A stretch of DNA of 64,000 nt, from positions 1-64,000 of the forward strand of contig NZ_PYGE01000008.1 in assembly GCF_003014555.1 (NCBI RefSeq), given 5' to 3'. This document shows positions 30,060 to 47,810 of the stretch, piece after piece. The notes beneath the pieces are model-generated. The model was given only the letters and a program-made list of their open reading frames with translations. It was not told the origin of the DNA and made no database searches. How positions within the stretch are numbered: position 1 is the first letter of the stretch; every line of letters starts with the position of its first letter. The translations under genes and the position numbers were made by a program. The DNA is from Haloactinopolyspora alba. Lineage in GTDB: Bacteria > Actinomycetota > Actinomycetes > Jiangellales > Jiangellaceae.

Positions 30060-33000
30060 TCAACCGACCCGCGCAATGCCCTTCTCCGCCCGCAGCTTGT
30101 CGACCGTGTCGACCAGGGTCCCGGCCCGGGCGTCGAACGAGTGCTCCTGGCGAACCCGCTCCGACAGAGCCTCCCGCGCCGCGGCACGCTCAGGTGTCTC
30201 GGCGAGTTGGATTGCCACCGCCTCGGCCAGTTCGTCCGCTGTCCGGTAGGTAGGGATGACGTCACCGAAGACGTCGGCCACACCCGGCACATCGTCGGTG
30301 ATGGCACGCGCTCCGCAGGCGGCCAGATCGAACAATCGGTTCGACAGCAACCCCTCGTCCTTCATGTCGTCCCAATGGTCGTTCAACACGACGCCTGCGG
30401 CGACATACGTGGCCGCCAACCGCTCGTTGGGCAGGTACTCCGCCTTCCACAAGCCCTCGGGCAGCAGGCCGTCCCAGCGCGCGCCGTACACTGCCGGGGC
30501 TATGCCGGCCTCGAGCGAGGCGGTCACCGACGCGCGACCGCGGCCCGCAAAGCCGCGGGCGTTGCCGACGAAGAGCACATCATGACGCCGGGTCTCGTCC
30601 GGCGCCACCGGACGGAACCGGTATCGGTCGGTGCACTGCAGCAACGGCTGGACGTCCGTGCCCATCTCGGTACGCAGGCGGTCGGCCAGACTCGCCGACG
30701 CAGCGAAAACCGCGTCGTACATGCCGAGTTCGCGTTTGGTGACCCGCTCCGGATGGCTGATGATCCAGGACAGGTTGATCTGTTGCGGATTCACCCGGTA
30801 GGCGCTCAAACCGCGTAGTACGAGCGTGACGTCGTCAAGCCGCGACGTTGGGCGGTACCAAGCGCGCTTCGCGTCGATCACCACTTCATGCCCCAGGCGC
30901 TCCAGTGCCTGCTTCAGCCCTATGGCGAAATGCCAGTCACCCCAGTTGAACCGGGTCGGCACGTCCTCGGCGCCGATCTTCAACGCCCACCGCAGCGGCC
31001 GCTGCGGCCGGTCGTGCACGACAATCGGGTCGAATCCCCAGTGCGTGTTAGCCGCGCCGTCGTACCCGATGATGGCGTACCCTCCGTCGCGCCACACCTG
31101 GATGTCGTCCTGCGGCACGGCGTCGCGCCACCGGCCGGTGAAGTGCTCCTGGTTGTCCACGGCCTGAAGCGCCGCCGAAGGCTTCCGCTTGCGCTGCGGC
31201 ATGACCGAGAGCGCCACCACACTCTCTGCGACGTAGCGCAGCTCACCGCCGGTCTCGTGGGCCAGCCTGAGGCTGAGATCGGGGTTGTCCATGTCGTTGA
31301 CGAACAACGGGTCGAAGCCGCGCACCCTGGTGAAGTCGGCCGCGCGCACCGCCATCACGTTCGACGACAGCGCCGCAGGGGCGGTCGAGCGCACCGCCTC
31401 GGGACCGTCACCCGGGAACTGGCGGTAGCGGTTGTGCGGTAGCGCTCCACGCGCGAACGACACTCCGGCGGACCACACGGTGCCGTCGACCGCCAGCAAC
31501 CGAGGCTGCGTGGCCACGACGCCGGCGTCACGCAACGGCTCGACCAGCGGGCCGAGCCAGCCGGGTTCGACCCAGGTGTCGGGCGGGATGAACACGACCA
31601 GTTCCCCGCTCGAGTACGCGACCCCGACAGACTGTGCGAGCTCGCGCGAGATGCGCAGCGACAGGCGAACGACCCTCACCTGCGGGAAGCGCACCATCAG
31701 GTGCTGCAGCCGGATGGCCTCGGCTTCGTCCGTCTTGGCATCGATCACGACGATCTCGATGTCGCGCTCTGTCACCTCGAGCAGCCGTTCCACCGTTGCG
31801 GCGATGCTTCGGGCATCGGAAGGCGCGTGCACGATGACCGATACCGAGCCTGGCTGCCGCTCACCCAGCCCGGACGCGACGTTCTCCCAGTCGATCATGT
31901 GCTTGCCGAGGATGACGTAGCGGTAACCGAACAGCTCGTTGATGGTGATCCGGTCGCTGCGCTGTTCCCATGCGTTATAGCGAGTGGCAATGAATGGCGC
32001 ATGGGCGAAATCGGTGACTTCGGACATCCGGACGAACAGATCCCAGTCGACATTTCGCCGCAGTTGTTCGTCGAACCCGCCGACCTCGTCGAGCAGGGAT
32101 CGTTCGTGCAGCACGACGATGCAGTCGATGAAGTTGCGCTCCCGCAGCGCAGCTGAGTTGAACGGCAACGAGCGATACCCGCGCCGCCCGTTCTCCTTCT
32201 CTTCCACCAACTCCGAGGCCGCGTAGGCGAACCGGACCCGGCGTGTGCGAACGAAGGCGACCATGACCTCGAGGAAGTCAGGGAACCAGGTGTTGTCGGA
32301 GTCGAGGTAGGCGACGTAATCGCCGCGGATGCGCTCGAGCCCGGCGTTGCGGGCCACCGACACCCCGCCGGCGCGCTCCCGCCGCACCAGCTCGATGCGA
32401 TCGTCGTCGAGGAAAGGCTCGAGCGCTTCCGCCGTGTCGTCGGTACTGCCGTCGTCGACGACGACGAGTTGCCAATTCGAGTAGGTCTGCGCGACTACCG
32501 ACTCGATCGCGGCTACGACACCGCGAGCGCGGTCCTTGGTAGGGATGACCACGGACACCAGCGGCCGCTGCTCACCGTTGCGCCGGTACTCGTCGAGAAC
32601 CTCGCGCTTGAATGCCTCCGCGGCGGAATGATCGAACGTCTCGCTGGTGCGGGGTAGACCTTCGTAGCCCTCGGTCTCGCGCAGCAACGCGCATGTCCGC
32701 CGGGTGAAGTCAGCAAGCGGTGGACCATCGACGTCGCCGAACCTCTTCCGGTAGGCGTCGTTGTCGAAGTCGGCACTCGGCCTCGCACCGGACTTCCACG
32801 CCACCGAGAGATAATGGCCGAGCGGCCCGCCACGGTACGCCGCGGCGTCGGGGTACTCGGCGACGTAGTACGTGGGGTCGAAGAGGGGATGCGGCGGGAG
32901 CCCGCGGGCGATCCCCCGGTTCACGTAGTGGATGAACGGAGCGACGTCCAGAGATCGCGGGGTCCGAGGGTGGTCGCGGTACCACGCAGAGCTGAAGCAC

Positions 33001-33227
33001 GGGTTCGGCGATATGTCCGTACCGGCACCTACCGTCACGTAATGGTCGACGAGGTCAGTACCCGACGGGATCGAACCGTCGAACTGCTCCCGGTACCACT
33101 TGGGATCGAACAACCCACTCTGACGGATCGAGCTGACGATCCGGCGACGTCGAAGGACGTCATCGACATAACCCTTCGGCAATGCTCGCCGGGCCAGGCG
33201 CCGAAGCGTGGCCATGGGTGCCCTCAT
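30060..33227 (-). CDS. Three-module glycosyltransferase (GT2, GT2-like, CgeB-like GT-B)
   Basis: 1055 residues from ATG at 33227 with GAGGAG seven bases upstream. Residues about 30-200 carry repeats of the type FDPKWYREQF...HPLFDPTYYVAEYPDA that precede many surface-polysaccharide glycosyltransferases. A GT2 domain follows at about 225-430 (VSVVIPTKDRARG, VVVDDGSTDD, LDSDNTW). Next is a second, degenerate GT2-like domain at about 455-700 (VSVIVHAPSDARS, VVFIPPDTW). The C-terminal 320 residues resemble CgeB-type GT-B enzymes (DVLFVGNARG, LSNRLFDLAACGARAITDDV). The second module lacks a clear DxD and may be non-catalytic. Its base composition is somewhat less GC-rich than its neighbours. Probably builds a repeat unit of the local polymer. 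Confidence 0.85.
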   Translation of the reverse strand: MRAPMATLRRLARRALPKGYVDDVLRRRRIVSSIRQSGLFDPKWYREQFDGSIPSGTDLVDHYVTVGAGTDISPNPCFSSAWYRDHPRTPRSLDVAPFIHYVNRGIARGLPPHPLFDPTYYVAEYPDAAAYRGGPLGHYLSVAWKSGARPSADFDNDAYRKRFGDVDGPPLADFTRRTCALLRETEGYEGLPRTSETFDHSAAEAFKREVLDEYRRNGEQRPLVSVVIPTKDRARGVVAAIESVVAQTYSNWQLVVVDDGSTDDTAEALEPFLDDDRIELVRRERAGGVSVARNAGLERIRGDYVAYLDSDNTWFPDFLEVMVAFVRTRRVRFAYAASELVEEKENGRRGYRSLPFNSAALRERNFIDCIVVLHERSLLDEVGGFDEQLRRNVDWDLFVRMSEVTDFAHAPFIATRYNAWEQRSDRITINELFGYRYVILGKHMIDWENVASGLGERQPGSVSVIVHAPSDARSIAATVERLLEVTERDIEIVVIDAKTDEAEAIRLQHLMVRFPQVRVVRLSLRISRELAQSVGVAYSSGELVVFIPPDTWVEPGWLGPLVEPLRDAGVVATQPRLLAVDGTVWSAGVSFARGALPHNRYRQFPGDGPEAVRSTAPAALSSNVMAVRAADFTRVRGFDPLFVNDMDNPDLSLRLAHETGGELRYVAESVVALSVMPQRKRKPSAALQAVDNQEHFTGRWRDAVPQDDIQVWRDGGYAIIGYDGAANTHWGFDPIVVHDRPQRPLRWALKIGAEDVPTRFNWGDWHFAIGLKQALERLGHEVVIDAKRAWYRPTSRLDDVTLVLRGLSAYRVNPQQINLSWIISHPERVTKRELGMYDAVFAASASLADRLRTEMGTDVQPLLQCTDRYRFRPVAPDETRRHDVLFVGNARGFAGRGRASVTASLEAGIAPAVYGARWDGLLPEGLWKAEYLPNERLAATYVAAGVVLNDHWDDMKDEGLLSNRLFDLAACGARAITDDVPGVADVFGDVIPTYRTADELAEAVAIQLAETPERAAAREALSERVRQEHSFDARAGTLVDTVDKLRAEKGIARVG

Positions 33228-33340
33228 GCAACTCTCCTCGGAAACGACCGTGTACCCAGGTCCTTCCCGACCCAAGTGCACCGGTATCTTATAGCGTCTC
33301 GACCCCGACCGAACGTTCGTTGGCGACTTGGAGTTTCTCG

Positions 33341-34195
33341 ATGCTGTGGTTGGTCACCGGCGCCGGCGGGATGCTCGGCCGGGACCTGTGCGCGATACTC
33401 GGCGAACGCGGCGAGGACGTCACCGCCGCCAGGCACGGTGAAATGGACATCACGGACGCTGCAACCGTCGACGCGGCCGTGCACGGGTACGACGTCGTCG
33501 TCAATGCCGCCGCCTACACCGACGTGGATGGGGCCGAACGCGATGTCGAGACCGCTCGGGCCGTGAACACCACCGGTGCTTCGCTGCTCGCCACCGCGTG
33601 CGCGCGCCACCGCGTCAGACTCGTACACATCTCCACCGACTACGTGTTCGACGGCATGGCCACCACCCCGTACCGCACGGACGCGCCGACGGCTCCGCGC
33701 TCGATCTACGGGCAGACCAAGCTCGCGGGCGAGCAGGCGGTGCTCGCGGACCATCCGAACGGCGCGACGGTCGTCCGCACGGCGTGGTTGTACGGCCGGC
33801 ACGGCCGGAACTTCGTCACGACCATGGCGCGACTCGCTCGCGAACGCGACCATGTCGACGTCGTCACCGACCAGCGCGGCCAGCCCACGTGGTCGCATGA
33901 CGTCGCCGTCCGCATCGCCGACCTCGTCGAGGCCGACGCGCCGACGGGGATCTACCATGCGACCAACACTGGACAGACTACCTGGTACGGCCTGGCCCGT
34001 GCCGTGTTCTCCCAACTCGGGCTCGATCCGGACAGAGTCCGCGAGACCACGACCGACAACTTCCCCAGCCTCGCTCCGCGGCCCGCCTACTCCGTGCTGG
34101 ACCACGACGGATGGCGACGCGCCGGGCTCGGCCCGATGCGCGCGTGGGAGGCTGCGTTCGCCGCCGCGGCGCCGGTCGTGCTGGCCGACTTCTGA
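33341..34195 (+). CDS. rmlD: dTDP-4-dehydrorhamnose reductase
   Basis: 284 residues, ATG with GGAG seven bases upstream. It is an SDR-fold enzyme that reduces dTDP-4-keto-L-rhamnose to dTDP-L-rhamnose with NADPH, the last step of the pathway. Seen: VTGAGGMLGRDL (cofactor loop), AAYTDVDGAE, the STDYVFDG block with the catalytic Thr region and YGQTKLAGE with the Tyr-x-x-x-Lys pair. It is separated from rmlC, rmlA and rmlB by a sulfotransferase gene but completes the set. Confidence 0.93.
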   Translation: MLWLVTGAGGMLGRDLCAILGERGEDVTAARHGEMDITDAATVDAAVHGYDVVVNAAAYTDVDGAERDVETARAVNTTGASLLATACARHRVRLVHISTDYVFDGMATTPYRTDAPTAPRSIYGQTKLAGEQAVLADHPNGATVVRTAWLYGRHGRNFVTTMARLARERDHVDVVTDQRGQPTWSHDVAVRIADLVEADAPTGIYHATNTGQTTWYGLARAVFSQLGLDPDRVRETTTDNFPSLAPRPAYSVLDHDGWRRAGLGPMRAWEAAFAAAAPVVLADF

Positions 34196-34230
34196 TGGCG
34201 GGATCCGCCGGGCCTCCCGGAGCGTCGGCT

Positions 34231-35124
34231 ATGGTTACGCGCATGTTCTTCCGGCGACGCCGTTCCACGCAGTCCGAGCCTGTTTTCGTTGGCGGGACCG
34301 GTCGCAGCGGAACCACCGTCATAGCACGGCTGATCGGGAAACACTCCAGATATCACCTGATCCCGATCGAGGCCCGGTTCCACTGCGAAGCCGGCGGACT
34401 GCCGAGCGTCATCGCAGGGAAGATGTCGATCGAGGACTTCCGCGATCGACTGGTCGGCCACTACTTCGAACGCACGGCCAGCAACGGCGGCAGCCGCGGT
34501 TTACACCTGGCCGACGTGCACCGTGAAGACATGGAGCGCGCCGTCGACAGGTTCGTCAAGAAGTTCGGGTCCGGCTCGAGCGCGGCCGCGCGTGACCTGA
34601 TGTCCACGATCTTCGACCCCGTGGCCGAGCGTGCCGGGGCAACGGCGTGGGTCGAGATGACACCACCGAACGTCGAGCAGCAGGCACTGCTCGAGAGCAT
34701 GTTCCCGTCGTCGAAGACGATCCACATCGTGCGTGACGGGCGTGACGTCGCCGTGTCCGTCGCATCGAAGCCGTGGGGCCCGAACGACCCGTTCAAGGCG
34801 CTGCAGTGGTGGGGCGAGCGGTTACGTGCCGCCGAGTTGAACGCCCCGTCAGACGGCTACACCCTTCTCGTGGGGTTCGAGGCGCTCATCGCCAACGACC
34901 GCGAGCGCCAGTTCGATCGGGTCTGCGAGTTCCTCGACATCACCCCGGAGGACACCATGCGCGAGTTCTTCGCCGAGTCCATGACGCCCACGCGCGCCAA
35001 GGTGGGCCGCTGGCGTGCGGACATACCCGAAGCCGAACACGAGCAGTTCGAGGAAACCTACCGTGCAGTAGTGGACAAGCTGCACGCCGACGGCGTGACC
35101 TCGGCCGCCGTCCTCTCGACCTGA
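34231..35124 (+). CDS. Sulfotransferase family protein
   Basis: 297 residues from ATG at 34231, with GGAG eight bases upstream. The PAPS phosphosulfate loop is FVGGTGRSGTTVIARLI, and the 3'-phosphate site is IHIVRDGRDVAVSVASKPWG, both in expected places. It follows rmlD by 35 bases, suggesting co-transcription. It would place sulfate from PAPS on a hydroxyl of the rhamnose-containing polymer or its precursor. The acceptor is an inference from position. Confidence 0.9.
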   Translation: MVTRMFFRRRRSTQSEPVFVGGTGRSGTTVIARLIGKHSRYHLIPIEARFHCEAGGLPSVIAGKMSIEDFRDRLVGHYFERTASNGGSRGLHLADVHREDMERAVDRFVKKFGSGSSAAARDLMSTIFDPVAERAGATAWVEMTPPNVEQQALLESMFPSSKTIHIVRDGRDVAVSVASKPWGPNDPFKALQWWGERLRAAELNAPSDGYTLLVGFEALIANDRERQFDRVCEFLDITPEDTMREFFAESMTPTRAKVGRWRADIPEAEHEQFEETYRAVVDKLHADGVTSAAVLST

Positions 35125-35156
35125 GGGCGTACCGGGTTCGATCGTGCCGCTCGGGT

Positions 35157-35783
35157 TCAGCCCGCGAGGCTGCGGCGGTAGGCCCGCACGGTGTCGTGCC
35201 GCGGCAACAACCCCGAGGCCCGCGCCTGAGCCAGCGTCGGCGCCTGCCGGTCCTTCTCCGACAGGAACGGCGCGATCGGCGCACCGGTACGGTCGTGCGC
35301 CGGCCACTCGATGCCCAGCGCCGGGTCCAGCGGGTCGATACCGTGCTCGCGGCCCGGTGCGTACGGCGCCGAGCACAGGTAAGTCACCGCCGACGCGTCC
35401 GCCAGCGACATGAACGCGTGCCCGAGACCCTCGGAGACGTACACCGCCCGCCGGTCGACGTCGTCGAGCAGCACTGACGCCGTCAGCCCGAACGTGGGTG
35501 AGCCGACCCGGATGTCGACGACCACGTCCAGCACGGCGCCGCTCACACAGGTGACGTACTTCGCCTGGCTCGGCGGGACGTCGGCGAAATGCACGCCGCG
35601 CAGTACACCGGCGGCCGACACCGACACGTTCGTCTGCACCACGTCGAGACGGTGTCCCACGTACGGCTCCAGCAGGTCGCCGCGGAACGACTCGAGGAAC
35701 GCTCCCCGGTCGTCGCTGAACACACGCGGTGTCACGGCCCAGGCGCCCTCGACCGGCAGCGCCTCGATCAGCGGTGCGTTCAC
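35157..35783 (-). CDS. rmlC: dTDP-4-dehydrorhamnose 3,5-epimerase
   Basis: 208 residues with a cupin fold. Diagnostic blocks: [27 protein letters not shown] with the catalytic His, [17 protein letters not shown] and the [12 protein letters not shown] stretch with the second His and nearby Tyr. It epimerises C3 and C5 of dTDP-4-keto-6-deoxyglucose. The start overlaps the upstream rmlA stop by four bases, so the two are translationally coupled. Confidence 0.94.
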
Positions 35784-36667
35784 GACGGGCCGACCTCCAC
35801 CCGCTCGGTCTTCAGTAGTTCCACCAGGTAGTCACCGTAGCCGGACTTCGCCAGCCGGTCGCCGCGCTCGCGCAGCTGCTCGTCGTCGATGAACCCCATC
35901 CGCCAGGCCACCTCCTCCGGGCAGCCGATCTTCTGGCCCTGCCGGGCCTCGATCACCCGGACGTAGTCGCCCGCGGCCATCAGGGTGTCGAACGTCCCGG
36001 TGTCCAGCCACGCGGTACCGCGGGGAAGCACCTCGACGCCCAGCATGCCGCGCTCGAGGTAGGTCCGGTTGACGTCGGTGATCTCGTACTCCCCGCGGGC
36101 GGAGGGGCGCAGCCCGCGGGCGATCTCGACGACGTCGCTGTCGTAGAAGTACAGCCCCGGCACCGCGTAGCTGCTGCGCGGAACGGACGGCTTCTCCTCC
36201 AGGCTGATCGCCTGGCCCCACGCGTCGAACTCGACCACGCCGTAGGCCGTCGGGTCCGAGACGTGGTGCGCGAAGACCAGCCCGCCCTCGACGGTCGAGT
36301 ACCGGCCGAGCTGGGTGCCGAGGCCCGCGCCGTAGAAGATGTTGTCACCCAGCACGAGCGCGACGTTGTCGTCACCGACGAAGTCGGCCCCGATCACGAA
36401 CGCCTGCGCGAGCCCGTTCGGCGCCGGCTGTTCGGCGAACGACACCGACAGCCCGAACTGCGACCCGTCCCCCAGCAGCGCCTCGAACTGCGCCCGGTCC
36501 TGCGGCGTGGTGATGACGAGGATGTCGCGCACACCCGCGAGCATGAGCGTCGTCAGTGGATAGTAGATCATCGGCTTGTCGTACACCGGCAACAGTTGCT
36601 TGCTCACAGCGACGGTCAACGGATGCAGACGGGTGCCCGATCCTCCCGCCAGGATGATTCCTCGCAT
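35780..36667 (-). CDS. rmlA: Glucose-1-phosphate thymidylyltransferase
   Basis: 295 residues. The nucleotide loop [18 protein letters not shown] and the [15 protein letters not shown] and GDNIFYG blocks are typical of RmlA. It makes dTDP-glucose from glucose-1-phosphate and dTTP, the first and usually feedback-inhibited step. It forms a two-gene unit with rmlC, divergent from rmlB. No strong ribosome site is visible before the ATG, but the frame and N-terminus are unambiguous. Confidence 0.95.
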
Positions 36668-36716
36668 GAGCGCTTACGATAGCCGCGCGGAAACAGGACT
36701 ATCGAGGAAGGGCTCG

Positions 36717-37700
36717 ATGCGGGTTCTCGTCACCGGCGGAGCCGGTTTCATCGGATCGCACTACGTCCGTCAGGCGCTGTCCGACGCGTACCCCGGGCTG
36801 ACCGACGCGGACGTCGTCGTCCTGGACAAGCTCACGTACGCGGGCAACCCGGCGAACCTCGCCCCGGTCGAGGACGATCCCCGCTACACGTTCGTCAAGG
36901 GCGACATCCTCGACACCGCGCTGGTCGACGAGCTCGTCTCGTCCTGCGACCAGGTGGTGCACTTCGCCGCCGAGAGCCACGTCGACCGGTCCATCGCCGG
37001 CGGCGCCGACTTCGTCCAGACCAACGTGGTGGGCACGCACACGCTGCTGGACGCGGCACGCCGGCACGGCGTCGACCGGTTCGTGCACGTGTCCACCGAC
37101 GAGGTCTACGGCACCATCGAGTCCGGGTCGTGGACCGAGGACCACGTCCTCGAGCCGAACTCGCCGTACAGCGCCAGCAAGGCCAGCAGCGACCTGGTCG
37201 CGCTGGCCTACCACCGCACTCACGGCGTACCAGTCTCGGTCACCCGCTGTTCCAACAACTACGGCCCGTACCAGTACCCGGAGAAGGTCGTCCCGCTGTT
37301 CGTCACGAACCTGCTGGACGGCCTGCAGGTGCCGCTGTACGGCGACGGGCTCAACGTCCGCGACTGGCTGCACGTCGACGACCACTGCGCGGGCGTCGAG
37401 CTGGTCCGCGGCGGCGGCCGCTCCGGCGAGATCTACAACATCGGCGGCGGCCGCGAGCTGACGAACTCCGAGCTCACCGGCCTTCTGCTGGACGCGTGCG
37501 GCGTCGGCTGGGAGATGGTCCGCTACGTCGAGGACCGGCTCGCGCACGACCGCAGGTACTCCGTCGACGACGGCAAGATCCGGCGCGAGCTGGGCTACCG
37601 GCCACGGCAGACGTTCGAGGACGGCCTCGCCTCCACCGTGGCCTGGTACCGCGACCAGCGCGCCTGGTGGGAGCCGCTGAAGTCCGGCTCGACCCGCTGA
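36717..37700 (+). CDS. rmlB: dTDP-glucose 4,6-dehydratase
   Basis: 327 residues from ATG at 36717, with GAGGAAGG upstream; the open frame continues further 5' but lacks homology. Extended SDR enzyme: TGGAGFIGSHYVR (NAD loop), AAESHVDRS, VSTDEVYGTIE with the catalytic Asp-Glu pair and PYSASKASSD with Tyr-x-x-x-Lys. It oxidises, dehydrates and reduces dTDP-glucose to the 4-keto-6-deoxy sugar. It diverges from rmlA over 49 bases, so the two promoters must overlap. Confidence 0.95.
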   Translation: MRVLVTGGAGFIGSHYVRQALSDAYPGLTDADVVVLDKLTYAGNPANLAPVEDDPRYTFVKGDILDTALVDELVSSCDQVVHFAAESHVDRSIAGGADFVQTNVVGTHTLLDAARRHGVDRFVHVSTDEVYGTIESGSWTEDHVLEPNSPYSASKASSDLVALAYHRTHGVPVSVTRCSNNYGPYQYPEKVVPLFVTNLLDGLQVPLYGDGLNVRDWLHVDDHCAGVELVRGGGRSGEIYNIGGGRELTNSELTGLLLDACGVGWEMVRYVEDRLAHDRRYSVDDGKIRRELGYRPRQTFEDGLASTVAWYRDQRAWWEPLKSGSTR

Positions 37701-37776
37701 ACGACTGCAGCCGGTGACGCAGACTTGATCGCCTGCGGCTGTGGCCTGCTGCTGGGCGTCGCGGTACCTTGCTGTC

Positions 37777-38076
37777 ATGGGAAGCATCCCCGAAGTCGAC
37801 CGTGACCGCCTCGCCGAGATCTGCGAACGCTACGGCGTGGCCGAGCTCGACGTGTTCGGCTCGGTCGCACGCGGCGACGACACTCCGCAGAGCGATATCG
37901 ACCTGCTCTACGTGCTGCGCCCGGATGCGAAGCTCGGCTGGGCGATCGAGGACCTCAACGACGAGCTCGACGAACTCTTCGGCCGCCACGTGGACCTGAT
38001 CTCGAAGCGATACATCAATCGCCGCCTGCGCGCGAGCATTCTGGCCGAGGCCCGTCTCATGTACGCCGCCGCCTGA
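37777..38076 (+). CDS. MNT-domain nucleotidyltransferase antitoxin (MntA-like)
   Basis: 99-residue minimal nucleotidyltransferase. The active-site motif GSVARGDDTPQSDID matches GSx10DxD exactly. In MntA-HepT systems the antitoxin AMPylates the Tyr of the HEPN toxin motif and so silences its RNase activity. The gene starts at ATG 37777 and ends 11 bases before the HEPN-encoding gene on the same strand, the usual order. Codon use is somewhat less GC-biased than the rml genes upstream, which hints at recent arrival. Confidence 0.88.
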   Translation: MGSIPEVDRDRLAEICERYGVAELDVFGSVARGDDTPQSDIDLLYVLRPDAKLGWAIEDLNDELDELFGRHVDLISKRYINRRLRASILAEARLMYAAA

Positions 38077-38087
38077 TCGCCCCGTCC

Positions 38088-40409
38088 ATGCAGCAGCGCG
38101 ACGTACTCCACCTCGACAAGATGATCGAGGCCGCGGCGACGGCAATCCGCATCTGTGACGAGTCGAGCGTCGAAGAGCTCGAGTCCCACACCGACCGACG
38201 TGGTTCACTCTTCTGGAACTTCATGGTTCTCGGCGAGGCAGCGCGGCAAGTATCCGAGGAGGTGAAGTCTCGGTTCCCGGAACTTCAGTGGCGTCAGCCG
38301 ATTCGGCTGCGGAATCGGGTCGTTCACGGCTACTGGGACGTCGACCTCGAGATTCTGCATCAGACTGCCACCGCGGCCCTCCCGGAGTTCAAGGCCGACA
38401 TTCAGCGGATCCGCGACCTCCTGGATGCGGACACCTCCTCGGCAGATCGGGCCGAAGTCATCTGGCGGCCCGATCCGAGCCGGGTCGCCGCCAGCCGGAT
38501 CAGCCGCTTCCGCGGGTGGCTGCGCGAGCGAGGTAGCACCGACACCGGCAGCTACGACGAGCTGTGGCGCTGGTCCGTCGACGAACCCGCCGCGTTCTGG
38601 GGTGCTGTGGCCGACTTCTTCGAGGTCGCGTTCCACGACCCGCCGGAGGCCGTGCTGCCCGAGCCGGTCATGCCCGGCACCCGATGGTTCCCCGGCGCCA
38701 CCCTGAACTACGCCGAGCAGGCCCTGCGCGCCGGCGACGACACCGCGCTTGCCGTCGTGTACCGGCGTGAGGACGGACTGCGCCAGCAACTGACCTACGG
38801 GCAGCTCCGCCGGAGAGTCGCGGCGGCACGCGCCGGCCTCGCCGCGCACGGCGTCGGCCGCGGCGACCGGGTCGCGGCAGTCGTGCCGAACACCCCGGAC
38901 GCGCTGGTCGCGTTCCTCGCCACCGCGAGCCTCGGCGCAGTGTGGTCGTCGTGCTCTCCGGACTTCGGCACGCGCGCCGTCGCCGACCGGTTCACCCAGA
39001 TCGAGCCGACGGTACTCATCGCGGTCGACAGCTATCGGTACAACGGGCGCGTATTCGACGTGACCCCGACGGTCGACGCTCTGCGCGCGGAGCTTCCGTC
39101 GGTGAAGTCCACCATGATCATCGGCACTTCCCGGGCTATGTGGCCGGAAAGTGCCGATGATCATCGGACGGTGGGCTGGGCGGAGCTACTGCAGGACCAC
39201 GACGGGGCACCCCTCGAGTTCACGCCGGTGCCGTTCGAGCACCCGCTGTGGGTGCTGTACTCGTCGGGCACGACCGGGCTGCCAAAAGGCATCGTGCACG
39301 GGCACGGCGGCATCGTCCTCGAGCACCTCAAGACCATGGCGCTGCACTTCGACGCGGGCCCGGGCGAGCGCTTCTTCTGGTACACCACCACCGGCTGGAT
39401 GATGTGGAACTTCCTGGTCTCCGGCCTGCTCACCGGCTCGACCGTGGTGCTGTACGACGGCAGCCCGTCGCATCCGGACCTGCACGCGCTGTGGCGGATG
39501 GCTGCCGAGGAGGACGTGTCCGTGTTCGGCACCTCGGCGCCGTTCGTGCAGGCGTGCCTCAAGGACGACGTGACGCTGGACCCGGACGCGTTCGCGTCAC
39601 TGCGCACCGTCGGATCGACCGGTGCGCCACTGACCGCGGACGGGTTCCGCTGGCTGGGAGCGCAGCTCGGTCCCGACGTCCAGATCGCCAGCTTCTCCGG
39701 GGGCACCGACCTGTGCACCGGATTCCTCGGGCCCGCTCCGGACGTTCCGGTGTGGCTGGGCGAGCTGTCCCGCCCCGCGCTCGGCGCCGCCGTCGCCGCC
39801 TACGACGAGCAGGGCCGGCCCGTCGCCGACGAGGTCGGCGAACTGGTGCTGACCCGGCCGATGCCCTCCATGCCGGTCGCGTTCTGGAACGACCCGGACG
39901 GTACCCGGCTGCATGACGCGTACTTCGCCGACTTCCCCGGGGTGTGGCGCCACGGCGACTGGGTCACCGCGACCGCACACGGCTCCGCCATCATCCACGG
40001 GCGCAGCGACTCCACCCTCAACCGCGGCGGCGTCCGGATGGGCACGGCCGAGTTCTACCGCGTCACCGAAGGACACCCCGGCGTCGACGACTCGCTGGTC
40101 ATCGACACGTCCGGCCATGGGAACGGCGACGGCGAGCTGCTGTGCTTCCTGGTGCTCGCCGAGAGCGCCGCGCCGCAGGACGTCGAGGCCGACCTGCGAC
40201 GCGCGTTACGCACCGAGCTGTCGCCGCGGCACGTGCCCGACCGGTTCCTCCGGGTCGACGCGGTACCCCGCACGCTGAACGGGAAGAAGTGCGAGGTGCC
40301 GGTGAAGAAGATCCTCGCCGGCGCCGACCCGGACACGGCCGTGAGCCGCGAGGCGTTGCGCAACCCGGACGCGCTCGACGAGTTCGTCGCGCTCGCCGAC
40401 CGCGGCTAG
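38088..40409 (+). CDS. HEPN (HepT-like) domain fused to acetoacetyl-CoA synthetase
   Basis: One 773-residue open frame with two parts. Residues 1-115 are a complete HEPN/DUF86 domain with the RNase motif RNRVVHGY (Arg75-x4-His80-x-Tyr82). From about residue 123 it is a full acetoacetyl-CoA synthetase: EVIWRPDPSRVAASRISRF, the adenylation loop YSSGTTGLPKGIVHG, YTTTGWMMWN, and NGKKCEVPVKK with the catalytic Lys. No stop lies between them, and no ATG, GTG or TTG codon occurs in frame between residue 110 and the start of the synthetase domain. The synthetase therefore seems to be made as part of the fusion. It would make acetoacetyl-CoA from acetoacetate, ATP and CoA. Residues 343-359 come from an inserted palindrome. 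The stop codon overlaps that of the convergent amidase gene. Confidence 0.85.
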   Translation: MQQRDVLHLDKMIEAAATAIRICDESSVEELESHTDRRGSLFWNFMVLGEAARQVSEEVKSRFPELQWRQPIRLRNRVVHGYWDVDLEILHQTATAALPEFKADIQRIRDLLDADTSSADRAEVIWRPDPSRVAASRISRFRGWLRERGSTDTGSYDELWRWSVDEPAAFWGAVADFFEVAFHDPPEAVLPEPVMPGTRWFPGATLNYAEQALRAGDDTALAVVYRREDGLRQQLTYGQLRRRVAAARAGLAAHGVGRGDRVAAVVPNTPDALVAFLATASLGAVWSSCSPDFGTRAVADRFTQIEPTVLIAVDSYRYNGRVFDVTPTVDALRAELPSVKSTMIIGTSRAMWPESADDHRTVGWAELLQDHDGAPLEFTPVPFEHPLWVLYSSGTTGLPKGIVHGHGGIVLEHLKTMALHFDAGPGERFFWYTTTGWMMWNFLVSGLLTGSTVVLYDGSPSHPDLHALWRMAAEEDVSVFGTSAPFVQACLKDDVTLDPDAFASLRTVGSTGAPLTADGFRWLGAQLGPDVQIASFSGGTDLCTGFLGPAPDVPVWLGELSRPALGAAVAAYDEQGRPVADEVGELVLTRPMPSMPVAFWNDPDGTRLHDAYFADFPGVWRHGDWVTATAHGSAIIHGRSDSTLNRGGVRMGTAEFYRVTEGHPGVDDSLVIDTSGHGNGDGELLCFLVLAESAAPQDVEADLRRALRTELSPRHVPDRFLRVDAVPRTLNGKKCEVPVKKILAGADPDTAVSREALRNPDALDEFVALADRG
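39114..39164. repeat. 51-bp palindromic element inside the synthetase coding sequence
   Basis: Arms ATGATCATCGGCACTT (39114-39129) and its exact complement (39149-39164) flank a 19-base loop. The 51 bp equal 17 codons and align with the reading frame, adding MIIGTSRAMWPESADDH between a LPSVKST-like strand and the WAELL helix of the synthetase. The same 16-base arms occur at 58135-58195. This looks like a small REP/MITE-type repeat tolerated in a surface loop. Confidence 0.85.
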
Positions 40410-42610
40410 ACGATCCGGTTGTACCCGCCCCACCGCCCGGCCAGGCGCTGCTTGTTGATGAACCCGCCGCGGCCGTCGCCGCGGAACAACGCCAGTTCGT
40501 CACCGCGGCGGCCCACCAGGTCGGCGCGGCCGTCGTCGTCCACGTCCCCCGCGGCGACGAGCTGGTAGCGATCCCAGCCCGTCGAACCGATCAGCCGAGC
40601 CGGCCGGAACGCGCCGTCCCCGCGGCCCCGGTACAGCCACAGCGAGCCGTCCGAGCGACGCCGGGCCACGACGTCCGGGATGCGGTCACCGTTCCAGTCA
40701 CCCACGACCATGATGGCGCTCATCCCGGCCCATCCGGTGCCGACGCGACGAGGCTGGGCGAAGGTGATGCCGTTCGCACGGCGCGGGTACAGCCACAGCG
40801 ACCCGTCCGAACGCCGGCGAGCCAGCAGGTCGGGCCGGCCGTTGCCGTCGAAGTCCCCCGCACCGACGATCGCGTTGATGCCCTGCCAGCCCCAGCCGAT
40901 CTGGCGCTTGGAACCGAGGTTTCCGTTGTCGGCACTCGGATACAGCCACAGCGAGCCATCGCTCTTCCGCCGGGCGACCAGGTCGTCGATGCCGTCGCCG
41001 TTCCAGTCGCCGGGCGTCGCCAGCCCGTCCATCCGGTGCCAGCCCGAGCCCGCCCGCCGGGGCGCGGCGTACCCGTCGCCGTTTCCCTTCGCCAGGTACA
41101 GCCTGCCGGCGCGCGTCGTGGCGAGCAACTCCGGGCGCCAGTTGACGTTGAGGTCACGTCCCGGAACCAGCTCCATGGCCGCTATGGTGCCCCGCCGGAT
41201 CTGGTCCAGCCGCCGGTACAACTCGTGTCCGGGACAGGCCGTCGCCGAGACGTCCCGGTGCCCGGCGATCGCCGGCAGCCGGCCCTGCTCGTAGCGGACC
41301 CGTCGCCGCGGGTCGACGCGGTGCACGGCGAACTTCCAGCCGAACAGCTCCTGGTAAGCACGGCGCATGCGCATGGTCGGAACGGTGCCGGTGTACGTGC
41401 CGATGGCCGCCATCCCGAACGCCTGGTCGTTGTACCGGTACGTGTGCGCGCCGATGACCGGCCTGCCGATGCCGCCGTAACGGCCCTCCCAGATCCGTCC
41501 GAACCGGTCGACCAGGAAGTTGTACCCGATGTCTTTCCAGCCGCGGGACTGGACGTGGTAGCGGTAGATCGACCGGATGATGCGCGGCACCCGCGACCGG
41601 GAGTACCGCGACGTGTTCACTGTGTGGTGCACGAACGCGCCGCGGATCTCGCCGTAGTCCGGCGGGTCCCCCCGCAGGGACTCGTCGGCTCCCCACGCCG
41701 CACGCGACCGGATCCTCGGCCGCGGCACACGAGCACCTGCGACCGCCGCTCCCTGCGCCGCCTCCTGCGTCGACGCCGTGGGGGCGTCCGACACGCTCGC
41801 CGGGTCGTCGCCCGGCGCGACGAGGTCGAGGCGCAGGCTGTCCGGAACCGCTCCGTCGGGCGCGTCGACGCGCACCTGAACGGCGTCGGACCGCTCGACG
41901 ATCAGCGGGTCGGTCCCGTGCCGCGTTCCCGGCTCGGTCGTGCCCGGCGTCGTCGGGCCGGACGCGGTCGGGCCGGACGCGTTCCCGGCGCCCTGGTCGG
42001 GCGTGTGGTTGGGGGCATGGTCCGCCCCGCCGGGCAGCTCGTACCACGACGACCACGTGCCCTCGCTTCGAGTTCGCACCCACGCGGTGATCTCGGCGTC
42101 GCCCTTCCAGGTGAGAGCGGCGAGCTCGAACGGCTCGACCTCGAGTTTCCGCGTGCGCACCACGGGCCGTCCGGCGTCCCGGGTCCTCGATCCGGTGTCG
42201 TCCCACGGAGCGGCCGGCATCGCGGGCAGATCGCCGAGACCTTCCGCCCGCGCCCGCAGGCCGACGGTCTGCAGCCCTTGGCCGGCCCGACGCGGCCCGG
42301 CCGTCGGCGTGGCCGGTGGCGGCGCCGTCGACGTGGCCGGTGGCGGCGCCGTCGGCGTGGCCGATGTCGGGGCTGTCGAACCGTGCGACACCGAGCCGTC
42401 CGGTGCGGTCGGCGTCCTCTCGGGTGCGCTCGGCGTCGTGGCCGGCGCCCCCTGCCCCGACGACGGCGTCGTGGCCGGCGCCCGGGTCTCGGAAGAATCC
42501 GGGGCCGTGCCGGAGGGGTCGGGCGCCGCCAGAGTCGGCGGTGCGCTCCCGAGCCCCGCGACGACCAAAGCCGTCACCAAGCCGCTCGGAATCACAGATC
42601 TGGTGCGCAT
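40406..42610 (-). CDS. Secreted PGRP-type N-acetylmuramoyl-L-alanine amidase with FG-GAP repeats
   Basis: 734 residues with signal peptide (about 1-28) and a Pro/Thr/Ala-rich linker (about 30-130). The amidase_2/PGRP domain lies at about 300-480: RSRAAWGADE, FVHHTVN (zinc His), GYNFLVDRFGRIWEGR and AGHRDVSATACPG (zinc His and Cys). Four FG-GAP repeats of the GDWNGDGxDDLVARR type fill the C-terminus. It cleaves the lactyl-peptide bond of peptidoglycan, or binds wall glycan, outside the cell. It shares the FG-GAP type with the beta-helix protein at 12280. It is convergent with the synthetase gene, the stop codons overlapping in CTAG. Confidence 0.9.
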   Translation of the reverse strand: MRTRSVIPSGLVTALVVAGLGSAPPTLAAPDPSGTAPDSSETRAPATTPSSGQGAPATTPSAPERTPTAPDGSVSHGSTAPTSATPTAPPPATSTAPPPATPTAGPRRAGQGLQTVGLRARAEGLGDLPAMPAAPWDDTGSRTRDAGRPVVRTRKLEVEPFELAALTWKGDAEITAWVRTRSEGTWSSWYELPGGADHAPNHTPDQGAGNASGPTASGPTTPGTTEPGTRHGTDPLIVERSDAVQVRVDAPDGAVPDSLRLDLVAPGDDPASVSDAPTASTQEAAQGAAVAGARVPRPRIRSRAAWGADESLRGDPPDYGEIRGAFVHHTVNTSRYSRSRVPRIIRSIYRYHVQSRGWKDIGYNFLVDRFGRIWEGRYGGIGRPVIGAHTYRYNDQAFGMAAIGTYTGTVPTMRMRRAYQELFGWKFAVHRVDPRRRVRYEQGRLPAIAGHRDVSATACPGHELYRRLDQIRRGTIAAMELVPGRDLNVNWRPELLATTRAGRLYLAKGNGDGYAAPRRAGSGWHRMDGLATPGDWNGDGIDDLVARRKSDGSLWLYPSADNGNLGSKRQIGWGWQGINAIVGAGDFDGNGRPDLLARRRSDGSLWLYPRRANGITFAQPRRVGTGWAGMSAIMVVGDWNGDRIPDVVARRRSDGSLWLYRGRGDGAFRPARLIGSTGWDRYQLVAAGDVDDDGRADLVGRRGDELALFRGDGRGGFINKQRLAGRWGGYNRIV

Positions 42611-43045
42611 GCCGACTCCCCTCTCCGCCGCGCCCGAGAAACACCATCAGTCTCACGCGTCACTCCTGTCCCGCACAACCCAGATGGTCCGTTTGTCCGA
42701 CAGATGTGCCGGTTCGGTCCACGCATGAGCGGAAGCACACCGGGGTAGCCACGGCCCCTCGGGCGCCGGGGAACAACGGGGAGACAAGAGCCGGCGCCGC
42801 GCCGCCACGCACTCGTCGGACGCGGTCACGTGCCACACGGCGCGACAGGGGCCACGCACGCCGTCCACAGCCGGACGTGCAAGTTCGGCTCGCCGTCGTG
42901 GCCAGGATCGCTTCAGTAGCCGGGCTCGCCGTAGTGGCCGGGTTTCACGTCACGAGGCTTTCGCACGCGTCACGAGGCCTGCAGGGGTGGTGACGCAGGG
43001 AATTCCATGCGGGACGTGATCATTCCCGGGGAGGGAGGGTGAGGG
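42611..43045. other. 435-base intergenic region without a recognisable gene
   Basis: It contains the probable promoter of the amidase gene and the 3' flank of the ABC ATPase gene. No reading frame here has convincing start, length or similarity. Two short direct repeats are visible: GGCTCGCCGTCGTGGCC (42887-42903) recurs with one change at 42923-42939, and GTCACGAGGC recurs at 42949 and 42969. Their meaning is unclear. Confidence 0.6.
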
Positions 43046-43828
43046 TTAGAAGTCCTCCATCGAGTAGGCGTCCTCGCCGAACTTGAGGAACTTTCGGTAC
43101 TCGGCGATGACCTCCTTCGGCTCGCCGTGCATCATCAGCCGGCCGTTGTGCATCCACACCGCGTCGTTGCACATGTCCTTGACGCTTCTGAGCGCATGGC
43201 TGACCAGGAACATCGTGCGCGCGTTGGCGGCGAGATCCTTCATCTTCGCCGCGGCCTTCTGCTTGAACGTGGCGTCGCCGGCGGACAGTGCCTCGTCGAT
43301 GAGCAGGATGTCCGGGTCCATGTGTACGGCGACCGAGAACGCCAGTCGCTGGAACATGCCGGAGGAGTAGGTGCGCATCGGCATGTCGATGAACTCGCCC
43401 AGTTCGGCGAACTCGGCGATGTCCTCGTACCGCTCGTGGATCTCCTCGCGCGTCAGACCGCCCGCGAGCCCGCCGAGGATGACGTTGTCGCGGCCGGTGA
43501 GCTGATTGTTGAAGCCGACGCCGAGCGCGAGGAGGGTACTCACCCGACCATCCACCTCGATCCGGCCCTGGCTGGGCGGCAGAATGCCCGCGATCATCCG
43601 CATCAGCGTGGACTTGCCGGCGCCGTTCGCGCCGATGATGCCGACCGCGTTGCCGTGCGGCACCTCGAAGGAGACGTCCTGGACCGCCTCGACCTCCTTG
43701 ACCGCCCGCTCACCTCGGCCCAGCCGCACCAACGCGGTCTTGAACGTCGGTGTCCGCTCGAACGTCGTGCGGTAGGTCAAGGAGACGTTCTCGACCTTGA
43801 CGGCCGTGGCTACCGAATACTCGCTCAC
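43046..43828 (-). CDS. ABC exporter ATPase, TagH/Wzt type without sugar-binding tail
   Basis: 260 residues from GTG at 43828 with GAGGTG upstream. Walker A GIIGANGAGKST, signature TYSSGMFQRLAFS, Walker B DILLIDEALSAGD and the switch His in FLVSHAL are intact. It is the energising subunit for export of an undecaprenol-linked polymer. The C-terminal carbohydrate-binding domain that lets some Wzt proteins recognise a capped O-antigen is absent, so the protein resembles TagH/RfbB-short forms. The start lies ten bases after the permease stop, indicating coupling. Confidence 0.92.
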   Translation of the reverse strand: MSEYSVATAVKVENVSLTYRTTFERTPTFKTALVRLGRGERAVKEVEAVQDVSFEVPHGNAVGIIGANGAGKSTLMRMIAGILPPSQGRIEVDGRVSTLLALGVGFNNQLTGRDNVILGGLAGGLTREEIHERYEDIAEFAELGEFIDMPMRTYSSGMFQRLAFSVAVHMDPDILLIDEALSAGDATFKQKAAAKMKDLAANARTMFLVSHALRSVKDMCNDAVWMHNGRLMMHGEPKEVIAEYRKFLKFGEDAYSMEDF

Positions 43829-43838
43829 GGCCTGCACC

Positions 43839-44714
43839 TCAGAGACGGACGACAAACTCGCGCTCCTTCGACATGAAGAACAGCACACCGGTCACGATGG
43901 CGACCAGCGACCACGCCGCGCTGAAGATCAGCATGGGCGTGTCCGGCATGGAGGTGCGGACGAGGCTTTCGCTCCATCCTCCCAGCATCGAATACAACGG
44001 GTTGAGATACAGCAGCCAAGCCACATCGCCGAGCACCTCTTGTATTCGTGCCTGCCCTTCCCACGGGTACCACAGGATCGGCGAGGTGTAGAGCCAGAGC
44101 CGGACCATGTAGGGCAGGAAGCTCGCCGTGTCCCGGAAGTACACCTGCGCCGTGGCGAAGATCATTCCCATCCCGGCGCCGAACAAGGTCAGGGTGAGCA
44201 CGAAGTACGGGGCCAGCAGCATCGTCCAGTCCCACGCCTGACCAGTCGCGATGTGCAGGACGAGGTACACGCCGAGGGTCGGCAGAAACCGGAAGAAGGC
44301 GGTACGGACCTCGGTCAACGGCAGCAGCAGCCGGGGGAACGACGTGTTCATCAGCAGTTTGCCGCCGCCGGTCACGCTGGACGCCCCGCTGCGCAGGATT
44401 CCGCCGAAGTACGTGAATGCGAATATGGACGCGACCAGATGAGCCAGGAAGTCCGAGTCGGCGGTGCCGCGGATGATGAACACCAGCGTGAAGTAGACCA
44501 TCGCCAGCAGCAGCGGGTTGAGCACCAGCCAGATCTGGCCGAACACCGTCAGCGTGTTGGCCGCCCGCATGGATGTGCGCGACAGCTCGCGGATGAACTC
44601 GCGGCGCTGCCACAACGCACGGAAGTACTTGCCAAACCGTGGCAAGCCTGCCCGATGCGGCTCGTAGACGTGCGTCGACGAGGTGAAGTCCTCGTCGAGA
44701 CGTGTGGCGTTCAT
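43839..44714 (-). CDS. ABC-2 type polysaccharide exporter permease, TagG/Wzm type
   Basis: 291 residues with about six membrane helices. The N-terminal cytosolic part (FGKYFRALWQRREFIREL) and the ABC-2 membrane region (RAANTLTVFGQIWLVLNPLL and the WLYTSPILWYPWE segment) are typical of wall teichoic acid and O-antigen exporters. With the ATPase downstream it would flip the lipid-linked glycan across the membrane. The gene is in the same orientation as the GT2 and LCP genes upstream. Confidence 0.92.
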   Translation of the reverse strand: MNATRLDEDFTSSTHVYEPHRAGLPRFGKYFRALWQRREFIRELSRTSMRAANTLTVFGQIWLVLNPLLLAMVYFTLVFIIRGTADSDFLAHLVASIFAFTYFGGILRSGASSVTGGGKLLMNTSFPRLLLPLTEVRTAFFRFLPTLGVYLVLHIATGQAWDWTMLLAPYFVLTLTLFGAGMGMIFATAQVYFRDTASFLPYMVRLWLYTSPILWYPWEGQARIQEVLGDVAWLLYLNPLYSMLGGWSESLVRTSMPDTPMLIFSAAWSLVAIVTGVLFFMSKEREFVVRL

Positions 44715-44831
44715 GGGAGTTGAGCCTTTCTACTGCTGCCGTCGCTCGGGCCGCACACGGTTCCGCAGCCGGACCGGGTCAAGGGTAGACGACACGGCGC
44801 CGAATCCTCGCACCGACGGGCATGACCGTCC

Positions 44832-46034
44832 TCACTCCGCCGCCCCCTGCCAGCGTATCCGTGCAGGTCGGCGCTTTGCGCCCCGCGGTCCGGTGAGGAA
44901 GCCGACACCCCACGTCAGGTGCATCGTCGCGAGGACGGGCGGCAACCACGCGCGCGAGCGCACCGGCAGCCCACGACCGACGGCGAGCCCTGCCGCCAGC
45001 ACCCCGGCGGCGTACCCGGCGGGAGCGAGCCAGCCGAGCGCGAGCCAGGCGGGAGCGCCCAGTGCCGCAGCCAGCCCGGTCACCGTGCCGCCGGCGACCG
45101 CGACCGTCACCACGGGGGCGGCCAGGTACCGCACCCCGGCCGTATCCGGGTAGCGGCGTACGACCTCGCGCCGCCACTGCCCGGTGGTGAGGAACTGCCG
45201 CGCCAGCGAACGCAGGTCCGGCCGGGGCCGGTAACTGACGGTGAGTTCGGGCGTGAACCAGACGGTGTGCCCGGCGGCACGGATGCGGTGGTTGAGTTCC
45301 CAGTCCTGGGCGCGCTGGAAGTGCTCGTCGAAGCCGCCCAGCGTGTCCAGCACGTCCCGGCGGAACGACCCTAGATAGACGGTGTCGGCCGGCCCCGCGC
45401 CGCCGCCCACGTGGAACCGCCCGCCACCGAGGCCGGCCCGCGACGTGTACGCCCGCGCCACGGCACGTTCGAAGTCGGTCTGCCCTTCGGCGTGCATGAT
45501 GCCGCCGACGTTGGCCGCGCCCGTGCGCTCCAGCGTCTCGACCGCGGTACGCACGTACCCGTCCGACAGCACGCCGTGCCCGTCGACCCGGACGATGATG
45601 GGGTGCGAGGCGGCGCCGAGCGCGGCGTTGAGTCCGGCGGGGGTCCGGGCGGCGGGGTTCCTGACCGTGCGCACCCGCGGGTCGGCCGCGGCGATGTCGT
45701 GTGCGATCCGCTCCGTGCGGTCGGTCGACGGCCCGAGGGCGAGCACGAGCTCGACCTCGCCCGGGTAGTCCTGGGCCATCACGCCGGAGACCGCTTCGGC
45801 CAGGTGCCGCTCCTCGTTGAGCACCGGCATGATGACCGAGACGGCCGGCCAGGCGCCGTCGGATGCGGCAGGGCCCGGCCGCGCGGCGTCCGTTGCGGCG
45901 TTCCGGTCGGGATCCGTCTCGGCGTTCTCGGCGGCGTTCATGTCGGCGTTCTCGGCGGCGTTCATGTCGGCGAGAACATTACCCGCACCGAGATCACGCG
46001 ATCGGCCACCCGCCGCGAATCGTCCGCTGCTCAC
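44832..46034 (-). CDS. Membrane glycosyltransferase family 2 (ExoA-like)
   Basis: 400 residues if started at GTG 46034, which overlaps the LCP stop codon as GTGA; ATG 45965 is a plausible later start. The first 65 residues are low in complexity. The GT-A domain runs from about 65 to 290: VSVIMPVLNEERHLAEAV, LALGPSTDRT, the VRVDGH metal site and FQRAQDWELNHRI acceptor block. Three to four membrane helices follow. ExoA-type enzymes add a sugar to a lipid-linked intermediate at the inner membrane face. It lies between the LCP ligase and the exporter, fitting polymer assembly. Confidence 0.85.
   Translation of the reverse strand: MSSGRFAAGGRSRDLGAGNVLADMNAAENADMNAAENAETDPDRNAATDAARPGPAASDGAWPAVSVIMPVLNEERHLAEAVSGVMAQDYPGEVELVLALGPSTDRTERIAHDIAAADPRVRTVRNPAARTPAGLNAALGAASHPIIVRVDGHGVLSDGYVRTAVETLERTGAANVGGIMHAEGQTDFERAVARAYTSRAGLGGGRFHVGGGAGPADTVYLGSFRRDVLDTLGGFDEHFQRAQDWELNHRIRAAGHTVWFTPELTVSYRPRPDLRSLARQFLTTGQWRREVVRRYPDTAGVRYLAAPVVTVAVAGGTVTGLAAALGAPAWLALGWLAPAGYAAGVLAAGLAVGRGLPVRSRAWLPPVLATMHLTWGVGFLTGPRGAKRRPARIRWQGAAE
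45921..45968 (-). repeat. Tandem 24-bp repeat near the GT2 start
   Basis: Two identical 24-bp units (45921-45944 and 45945-45968). On the minus strand they encode MNAAENAD and MNAAENAE, so each unit holds a possible ATG start. This makes the true start ambiguous. Confidence 0.85.
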
Positions 46035-47593
46035 TCGTACGAGCACACCGAGGAGACGCCGACCGGCTCGGACGCGTCCGAGCCCGAACCCTCTTCACCG
46101 CCGCTTCCGGCGTCGACGTCAGCGCCCTCGCCGGTGGCGTCGCCGTCCCCGGAACCGTCCGGCGAGGACGCGGAATTACCGTCGCCCGCGGCGCCGTCGC
46201 CCGCGGCGCCGTCGCCCGCCGACCCGGAGCCTCCGGATCCGTTCCCGTCACCGGTCTCGACGGCGCCGTCCAGGAACGCCTGCGTCTCGGCGGCGATCAG
46301 GTCGAAGTCGGGGTCGGCCGGCGCGATCAACGGCGGCACGAACTGCAGCGCCGTCATCTCCTGGTCCTTGGCCTTCAGACCGAGGTCGACAAGGTTGGTG
46401 AGGTCCTCGCGCGGGATGTCCGTGGTGATCATCGTCTTCGACGCCTCGGCGAGGTCGAGGAAGTTCGCCAGCAGGGTGCCCGGCTTCGCCTCCTTCAGCA
46501 ACGCGCCGAGGACGCACCGCTGCCGGGCCATCCGGGCGTAGTCCGACGACCCCTCGCGGGACCGCGCGTACCACAGCGCGTGGTAGCCGTCAAGCTCCTG
46601 CAGGCCCGGCTCGAGAACGCGGCCCTTCTCGCCGATGGGCAACTCCTCCTCGACCCGGATGGTGATGCCGCCGATGGCGTTGATGATGTCGCGGAATCCG
46701 TCGAGGTCCACGGCGACGTAGTAGTGCACCGGGAGCCCGAGCGTCCCCTCGACGGCCTGCTTCACCGCCGTCGGCCCGGGGCCCGACGGCCCGGGGAACA
46801 TGTCGGGGTGCTCCTCGCCGTACGTCCAGGTGGCGTTGAGCATGTAGTCGGAGCGCTCGCCCTCGCCGCTGAACCCGTCCGGGAACTGCTCGTCCGCCGG
46901 TGTGCCGTCGGGGAACCGCGCCTTCTCGAGGTTGCGGGGCAGGCTGATCACGGCGGGTTCGCCGGTGCGCACGTCGACCGAGACGAGGTTGATGCTGTCC
47001 GGGCGGACCCCGACCCGTCCGTCGCCGGCGTCCGCTCCGAGCAGCAGGATGTTCAGCCGCCCGTCACTGGCCGCGGCGACCTCTCCGGACGGGAACATCG
47101 CCACGACGGCGTCGTGTGCGGCCGTGGCGTACCGCGCGGCGACGACGAAGGGGGTCGCGACCATCGCGGCCAGCGCGAGCGTCGAGCCGACCATGATGAG
47201 CCGGTGCTTCTGGTTCAGCCCGGGCGGATGCCCGAGCCGCCAGGCGTCGACCAGCAGGCCGACCCAGCAGGCCGCGGCCCCGAAAGCCAGGATCTTGAAG
47301 GTGGTCAGCAGCCAGGGCCGCACCGCGAGCGTCGCCAGGTCCTCCAACGGCACCAGCCAGAGCACGAGCAGCGTCACCGCCGCCAGACCCGCCGCCGTCC
47401 AAAGAGCGATCTTGCCCGTCTTGCGGTGACCGGCGATGAACTGGGCACAACCCGGCGCGACGACGGACAGCCCGACGAGCGTCAACGACCGGCGGAACCG
47501 GGCCGCCTCCTCACGCTCGGCCCGCAGCGCGGCCGCCGGCCGGCGTCTGGCCGGCTGCCGCCGGGGACCCGGCGGCCTGGCCGCAGTACCCAT
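46031..47593 (-). CDS. LytR-CpsA-Psr (LCP) family glycopolymer ligase with extra membrane helices
   Basis: 520 residues. Four membrane helices precede the catalytic domain (about 35-190), more than the single helix of most LCP proteins. The LCP domain has LNILLLGADAGDGR, SINLVSVDV, VISLPRNLEK with the catalytic Arg, and WYARSREGSSDYARMARQR with the paired Arg residues that hold pyrophosphate. LCP enzymes move a polymer from lipid carrier to peptidoglycan. The last 70 residues are Gly/Asp/Ser-rich with a small tandem repeat and a final Cys near the end. Confidence 0.9.
   Translation of the reverse strand: MGTAARPPGPRRQPARRRPAAALRAEREEAARFRRSLTLVGLSVVAPGCAQFIAGHRKTGKIALWTAAGLAAVTLLVLWLVPLEDLATLAVRPWLLTTFKILAFGAAACWVGLLVDAWRLGHPPGLNQKHRLIMVGSTLALAAMVATPFVVAARYATAAHDAVVAMFPSGEVAAASDGRLNILLLGADAGDGRVGVRPDSINLVSVDVRTGEPAVISLPRNLEKARFPDGTPADEQFPDGFSGEGERSDYMLNATWTYGEEHPDMFPGPSGPGPTAVKQAVEGTLGLPVHYYVAVDLDGFRDIINAIGGITIRVEEELPIGEKGRVLEPGLQELDGYHALWYARSREGSSDYARMARQRCVLGALLKEAKPGTLLANFLDLAEASKTMITTDIPREDLTNLVDLGLKAKDQEMTALQFVPPLIAPADPDFDLIAAETQAFLDGAVETGDGNGSGGSGSAGDGAAGDGAAGDGNSASSPDGSGDGDATGEGADVDAGSGGEEGSGSDASEPVGVSSVCSYE
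46181..46210 (-). repeat. Tandem 15-bp repeat in the LCP tail
   Basis: Two perfect GTCGCCCGCGGCGCC units followed by a degenerate third, encoding repeats of GAAGD in the disordered C-terminal tail. Likely slippage in GC-rich DNA. Confidence 0.8.
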
Positions 47594-47810
47594 GCACGTC
47601 CCCCACGATGCGTCGTCCGCGCGGGCGCCCCCGTAGCGCTCGCGTCGCCAGTATCACCGCCGAGGTCCGTGATCGCGTCTGCGGCACGCCGGACACCGCA
47701 CGTCTCGTCCGTCACAACAGTCACACAGAACGCCGGATACCGCCACGTTGAACGACAAGGCGGGACATGGACGGAACCCGCGCACGGGTCGCCGCCACCG
47801 GACCGCGCCC

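Follow-up and report, generated by a model that had tools for sequence, protein, structure and literature searches.

An in-frame HepT-acetoacetyl-CoA synthetase gene fusion predicted beside an mntA antitoxin gene in Haloactinopolyspora alba

Organization of the mntA and hepT-AACS locus

We analysed a stretch of 64,000 nucleotides from Haloactinopolyspora alba (contig NZ_PYGE01000008.1; hereafter the window), in which the gene for a minimal nucleotidyltransferase antitoxin, mntA, is followed on the forward strand by one frame encoding both a HepT-like toxin domain and an acetoacetyl-CoA synthetase (AACS). The features of the locus are these:

37765..37770 (+): -10-like hexamer TACCTT, 6 bases before the mntA ATG, in a leaderless-type layout; picked out by eye, a weak prediction
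37777..38076 (+): mntA, 99 aa; PF01909, E 2.6e-15; GSX10DXD motif intact
38088..38435 (+): residues 1-116 of the fused frame, encoding HepT; PF01934; RX4HXY motif intact (RNRVVHGY, residues 75-82)
38425..38427 (+): ATG shifted one base from the fusion frame, from an indel scan; would be the AACS start if a base were missing just downstream
38436..38459 (+): junction, residues ~117-124 (SSADRAE...), of low confidence in structure models, with neither a hepT stop nor an AACS start
38460..40409 (+): complete AACS part, through the stop codon; NF002937 and TIGR01217 both over cut-off

The frame at 38088-40409 (+) opens with ATG and continues for 773 codons with zero internal stops, corresponding to a protein of 84.6 kDa. 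Pfam searches of the 773-aa frame returned the HepT-like family PF01934, followed by ACAS_N, AMP-binding, and AMP-binding_C. The PF01934 match covers residues 13-108 and reaches the last profile position (E 1.4e-17; 64 bits against a cut-off of 23.5), and the AACS model NF002937 matches residues 122-771 (889.7 bits against a cut-off of 639), with the NCBIfam match beginning at residue 121-122; the acetoacetate-CoA ligase model TIGR01217 scores 775 against a cut-off of 521. These matches bear out the sequence-only reading of this DNA, which had described a single frame holding a full HEPN domain with RNRVVHGY and a full AACS. The coding signal stays in one frame throughout the junction and is negative in the two other frames, and the arrangement is no chance overlap of frames, because both halves strongly match curated families. 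The correctness of the base count at the junction in the living organism lies beyond the reach of sequence alone, and the fusion described here is a predicted one, with the junction-spanning peptide DLLDADTSSADR.

Its fold and motifs place the toxin half among HepT/MntA (type VII) systems, with RNase toxicity and neutralisation by adenylylation as predicted properties. The HEPN domain, the RX4HXY motif, and the adjoining GSX10DXD nucleotidyltransferase are all present, but the separate small toxin protein of such systems is not, as the toxin frame runs on into AACS. The same two motifs mark the pair SO_3166/SO_3165 of Shewanella oneidensis, in which the antitoxin gene also comes first and MntA adds three AMPs to a HepT tyrosine (PMC7641770); there, however, the toxin is separate and small, whereas here it makes up the N-terminus of a protein of 773 aa. 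HepT is known to act as a dimer in larger complexes with MntA (PMC7641770, PMC11586414).

The MntA of the window carries its GSX10DXD motif as GSVARGDDTPQSDID and matches the PADLOC model PDC-S09 (E 5e-35). Its score against the NCBIfam MntA model NF047752 (46.1 bits) falls under the cut-off of 60, and this model may simply miss the branch of MntA seen here, because close relatives of the mntA-hepT pair exist. At the position matching the TACCTT hexamer, mntA relatives have TACCCTTG, and a scan with the sigma-70 consensus gave no match at 37765..37770 upstream of mntA. Since mntA genes elsewhere have a similar promoter-like layout upstream, the putative promoter in front of mntA probably came along with the cassette. 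Capture of an AACS promoter by the cassette was also considered and dropped, the mntA leader being as much like mntA leaders elsewhere as it is like the AACS leader of a relative.

The junction and its genomic setting

The nearest HepT relatives found, those of actinobacterial loci L129-L136, belong to another family of the same class and are standalone proteins of 115 aa encoded behind mntA. They are 50-54% identical over the whole domain and share with the window both the mntA gene order and the C-terminal end, finishing in VDEDT or similar where the window HepT finishes in LDADT. They differ at the next step: the codon matching 117 is TGA or TAA in these relatives, whereas in the window it is TCC (Ser) and the frame continues into AACS. 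On the other side of the junction, a start codon lies 3-14 codons ahead of the conserved VVW in 68 of 70 AACS relatives and 32 codons ahead in the other two. Standalone AACS of Jiangellaceae starts just ahead of this motif (MTDDAEVVW in most Jiangella-like genomes), and the N-terminus in a same-genus genome is MSADLDVEPEVVW. The nearest in-frame start codon of the window AACS lies 67 codons upstream, within HepT; the earlier statement that no ATG, GTG, or TTG occurs in frame from residue 110 to the synthetase is true, and the stretch free of such codons even extends upstream as far as the GTG at residue 59. Near-cognate codons in the junction gap are ATT 105, ATC 108, CTG 112, and ATC 125. HepT relatives stop there and AACS relatives start near VVW, so the junction is missing both the stop and the start; almost nothing else is lost.

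In structure models, HepT (aligned with HepT relatives) and AACS (aligned with AACS relatives) both fold confidently, and residues 113-121 have a pLDDT under 50 in the better model; from the first model, in which the AACS alignment was too shallow, the HepT part alone was used. The models, which bear on the folds of the two parts, are compatible with two independent domains joined flexibly, and the junction is probably flexible.

Judged by sequence, the synthetase half is an unremarkable AACS, predicted to act on acetoacetate. Compared with acetoacetate-CoA ligase (TIGR01217/NF002937; closest solved structure 4wd1), it is of full length, keeps all invariant residues, and is 70-76% identical to most intact family members, differing in that it lacks its own start codon and promoter and carries an N-terminal HepT domain. 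It retains 178/178 of the columns invariant among relatives, and comparison with the same-genus copy reveals no consistent change in rate. The genome has no other AACS, the next-best match being 31% identical; for these reasons, AACS is probably used through the fusion frame. Comparisons of AACS took one genome per species throughout and so bear on differences between species. In another family member (G017:C4:84681-86745), the AACS match falls in two pieces in different open frames (L030 and L032), the pattern expected from a frameshift or a sequence error and a hint that the family may be able to do without AACS.

The gene order in the window is rmlA/rmlB, mntA, hepT-AACS, and an FG-GAP amidase gene. 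In the same-genus genome (G001), it is rmlA/rmlB, an APH-like gene on the opposite strand, a standalone AACS, and the FG-GAP amidase gene, with no hepT; nothing in the genome of the window matches the APH-like gene. Relative to this genome, the mntA-hepT pair is thus extra and local, which supports the proposal of the sequence-only reading that a toxin-antitoxin pair arriving at the 5' end of AACS captured its translation. A misjoined assembly is argued against, because both flanks stand in the expected order. The third-position GC of hepT (0.79) is lower than that of AACS (0.92), in keeping with import. No flanking direct repeats occur at the cassette edges, where one chance 6-mer was the only match, and a search for a mobile origin of HepT gave distant HepT (~30% identity) from plasmids and none from phages.

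The gap between rmlB and AACS (window 37701-38087; L157:15625-16924) holds an APH-like kinase in G001, mntA-hepT here, and ~7 kb in a Jiangella-type genome, and it may be a frequent gene-gain spot, since its contents differ between related genomes. The fusion frame and the convergent frame of the FG-GAP amidase overlap by 4 bases at their ends (40406-40409), too tightly for a terminator to fit between the two. The surroundings (window 30063-47653) form a cell-surface polysaccharide region with glycosyltransferases, a sulfotransferase, rhamnose genes, an ABC transporter, and a LytR-CpsA-Psr protein. AACS seems metabolically out of place there, a location that it shares with the same-genus genome.

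The fusion appears to be a real gene fusion, unique so far. None of 22 family genomes or 80 named genome loci (lowest match start, residue 95) yielded a further HepT-AACS fusion, nor did the class-wide matches listed (~150; 231 genomes matched; lowest other start, residue 90), and no upstream extension of the 70 extracted AACS frames is HepT-like. The search of related genomes that the sequence-only reading had proposed for the HEPN plus AACS architecture accordingly gave no second case, and its remark that such a fusion was unfamiliar agrees with the searched literature, itself only part of the whole, in which no earlier report of this architecture was found. HEPN proteins of the DUF86/PF01934 family are sometimes fused to other domains, but the partners named (MNT, nuclease-like, and methylase domains; PMC3710099) do not include a metabolic CoA ligase, the partner here.

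Competing accounts of the junction

The main rival to a genuine fusion, which we judge unlikely though deserving of weight, is a sequence error: one base missing (or two extra) just past the ATG at 38425, with the true AACS starting at 38425 and overlapping a longer hepT. A scan of one- and two-base changes found that a missing base or two extra bases at ~38427-38464 brings ATG 38425 into the AACS frame, and the resulting N-terminus, such as M-x-D-T-S-S-A-D-R-A-E-V-I-W, would look like those of relatives (compare M-T-D-D-A-E-V-V-W in Jiangella). The corrected hepT, however, would encode ~149 aa, running 33 codons past the stop of its relatives and overlapping AACS by ~112 bases, whereas the window HepT end, DADT, matches the DEDT of relatives right to the stop position. 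Moreover, ATG 38425 is not preceded by a Shine-Dalgarno-like sequence, and its layout is not of the leaderless type. Codon statistics cannot settle this point, because the downstream frame is identical either way.

It is improbable, in our estimation, that the DNA is correct and AACS is made mainly as a separate protein, from the non-standard CTG at 38421 or from the internal GTG (residue 59), with the fusion a minor product. The codon CTG 112 does sit at the position expected for a native AACS start, but CTG starts are rare, no ribosome-binding sequence precedes CTG 38421, and all AACS relatives examined (n=70) have a standard start codon, and an AACS begun at the GTG would still carry half of a HepT domain. 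A decaying locus, with a recent fusion and one or both parts inactive or unexpressed, seems more improbable again: restriction to a single genome and the disrupted AACS of G017, which suggests that loss is possible, would suit it, but there is no stop, frameshift, or consistent rate change, and the AACS invariants and both toxin-antitoxin motifs are retained.

Functional coupling, whereby the HepT RNase would be controlled by the acetoacetate, ATP, or AMP state of the synthetase, or the synthetase by MntA adenylylation of HepT, is very improbable; catalytic motifs are kept in both halves and AMP chemistry occurs in both partners, the latter being suggestive only, but conservation is limited to one genome and the junction looks like two entire genes set end to end, without an extra domain. 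No evidence supports the earlier suggestion that RNase activity is tied to the acetoacetate/ATP state, and we hold it equally doubtful that the chain is bifunctional, coupling HEPN RNA cleavage to acetoacetate activation through an MntA adenylylation switch. A regulatory role of the fusion is speculation unsupported by present evidence, and the HepT-AACS fusion alone is not evidence for a new kind of regulation.

Proposed origin of the fusion

The account that we favour, and consider reasonably probable, is a local insertion of mntA-hepT that captured the translation of AACS, leaving a tolerated accidental fusion in which HepT is tamed by MntA and AACS is a passenger. We hypothesize that a type VII mntA-hepT cassette settled in the variable rmlB-AACS gap and that the stop codon of hepT, any intervening spacer, and the promoter and start codon of AACS were lost, such that hepT would read in frame into AACS. 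The insertion and the disappearance of the stop and start codons may have been a single event or two separate ones. The cell would then make MntA plus one HepT-AACS protein, probably off one transcript. MntA would adenylylate the tyrosine of RNRVVHGY and silence the HepT part, while AACS would operate as a tethered passenger after a short flexible junction. The frame, domains, motifs, synteny, missing start and stop codons, and intact AACS sequence are observed; expression, activity of either domain, adenylylation, and the order of events are inferred. Counting against this account are its occurrence in one genome only, the one-base error that could produce the fusion, and the 71 kDa cargo on each HepT of a dimer, which may not be tolerated.

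In the favoured account, the accident would be tolerated and the cassette would incidentally be hard to lose, because AACS translation now depends on hepT. The earlier suggestion of a neutral addiction device is possible, although a tolerated in-frame accident is the simpler reading. If the fusion is confirmed, the locus would allow a direct test of whether a HepT toxin copes with a large C-terminal cargo while remaining under MntA control. It would also catch a toxin gene in the act of taking over the translation of an adjacent metabolic gene, and the cassette could then hardly be lost without harm to the AACS enzyme.
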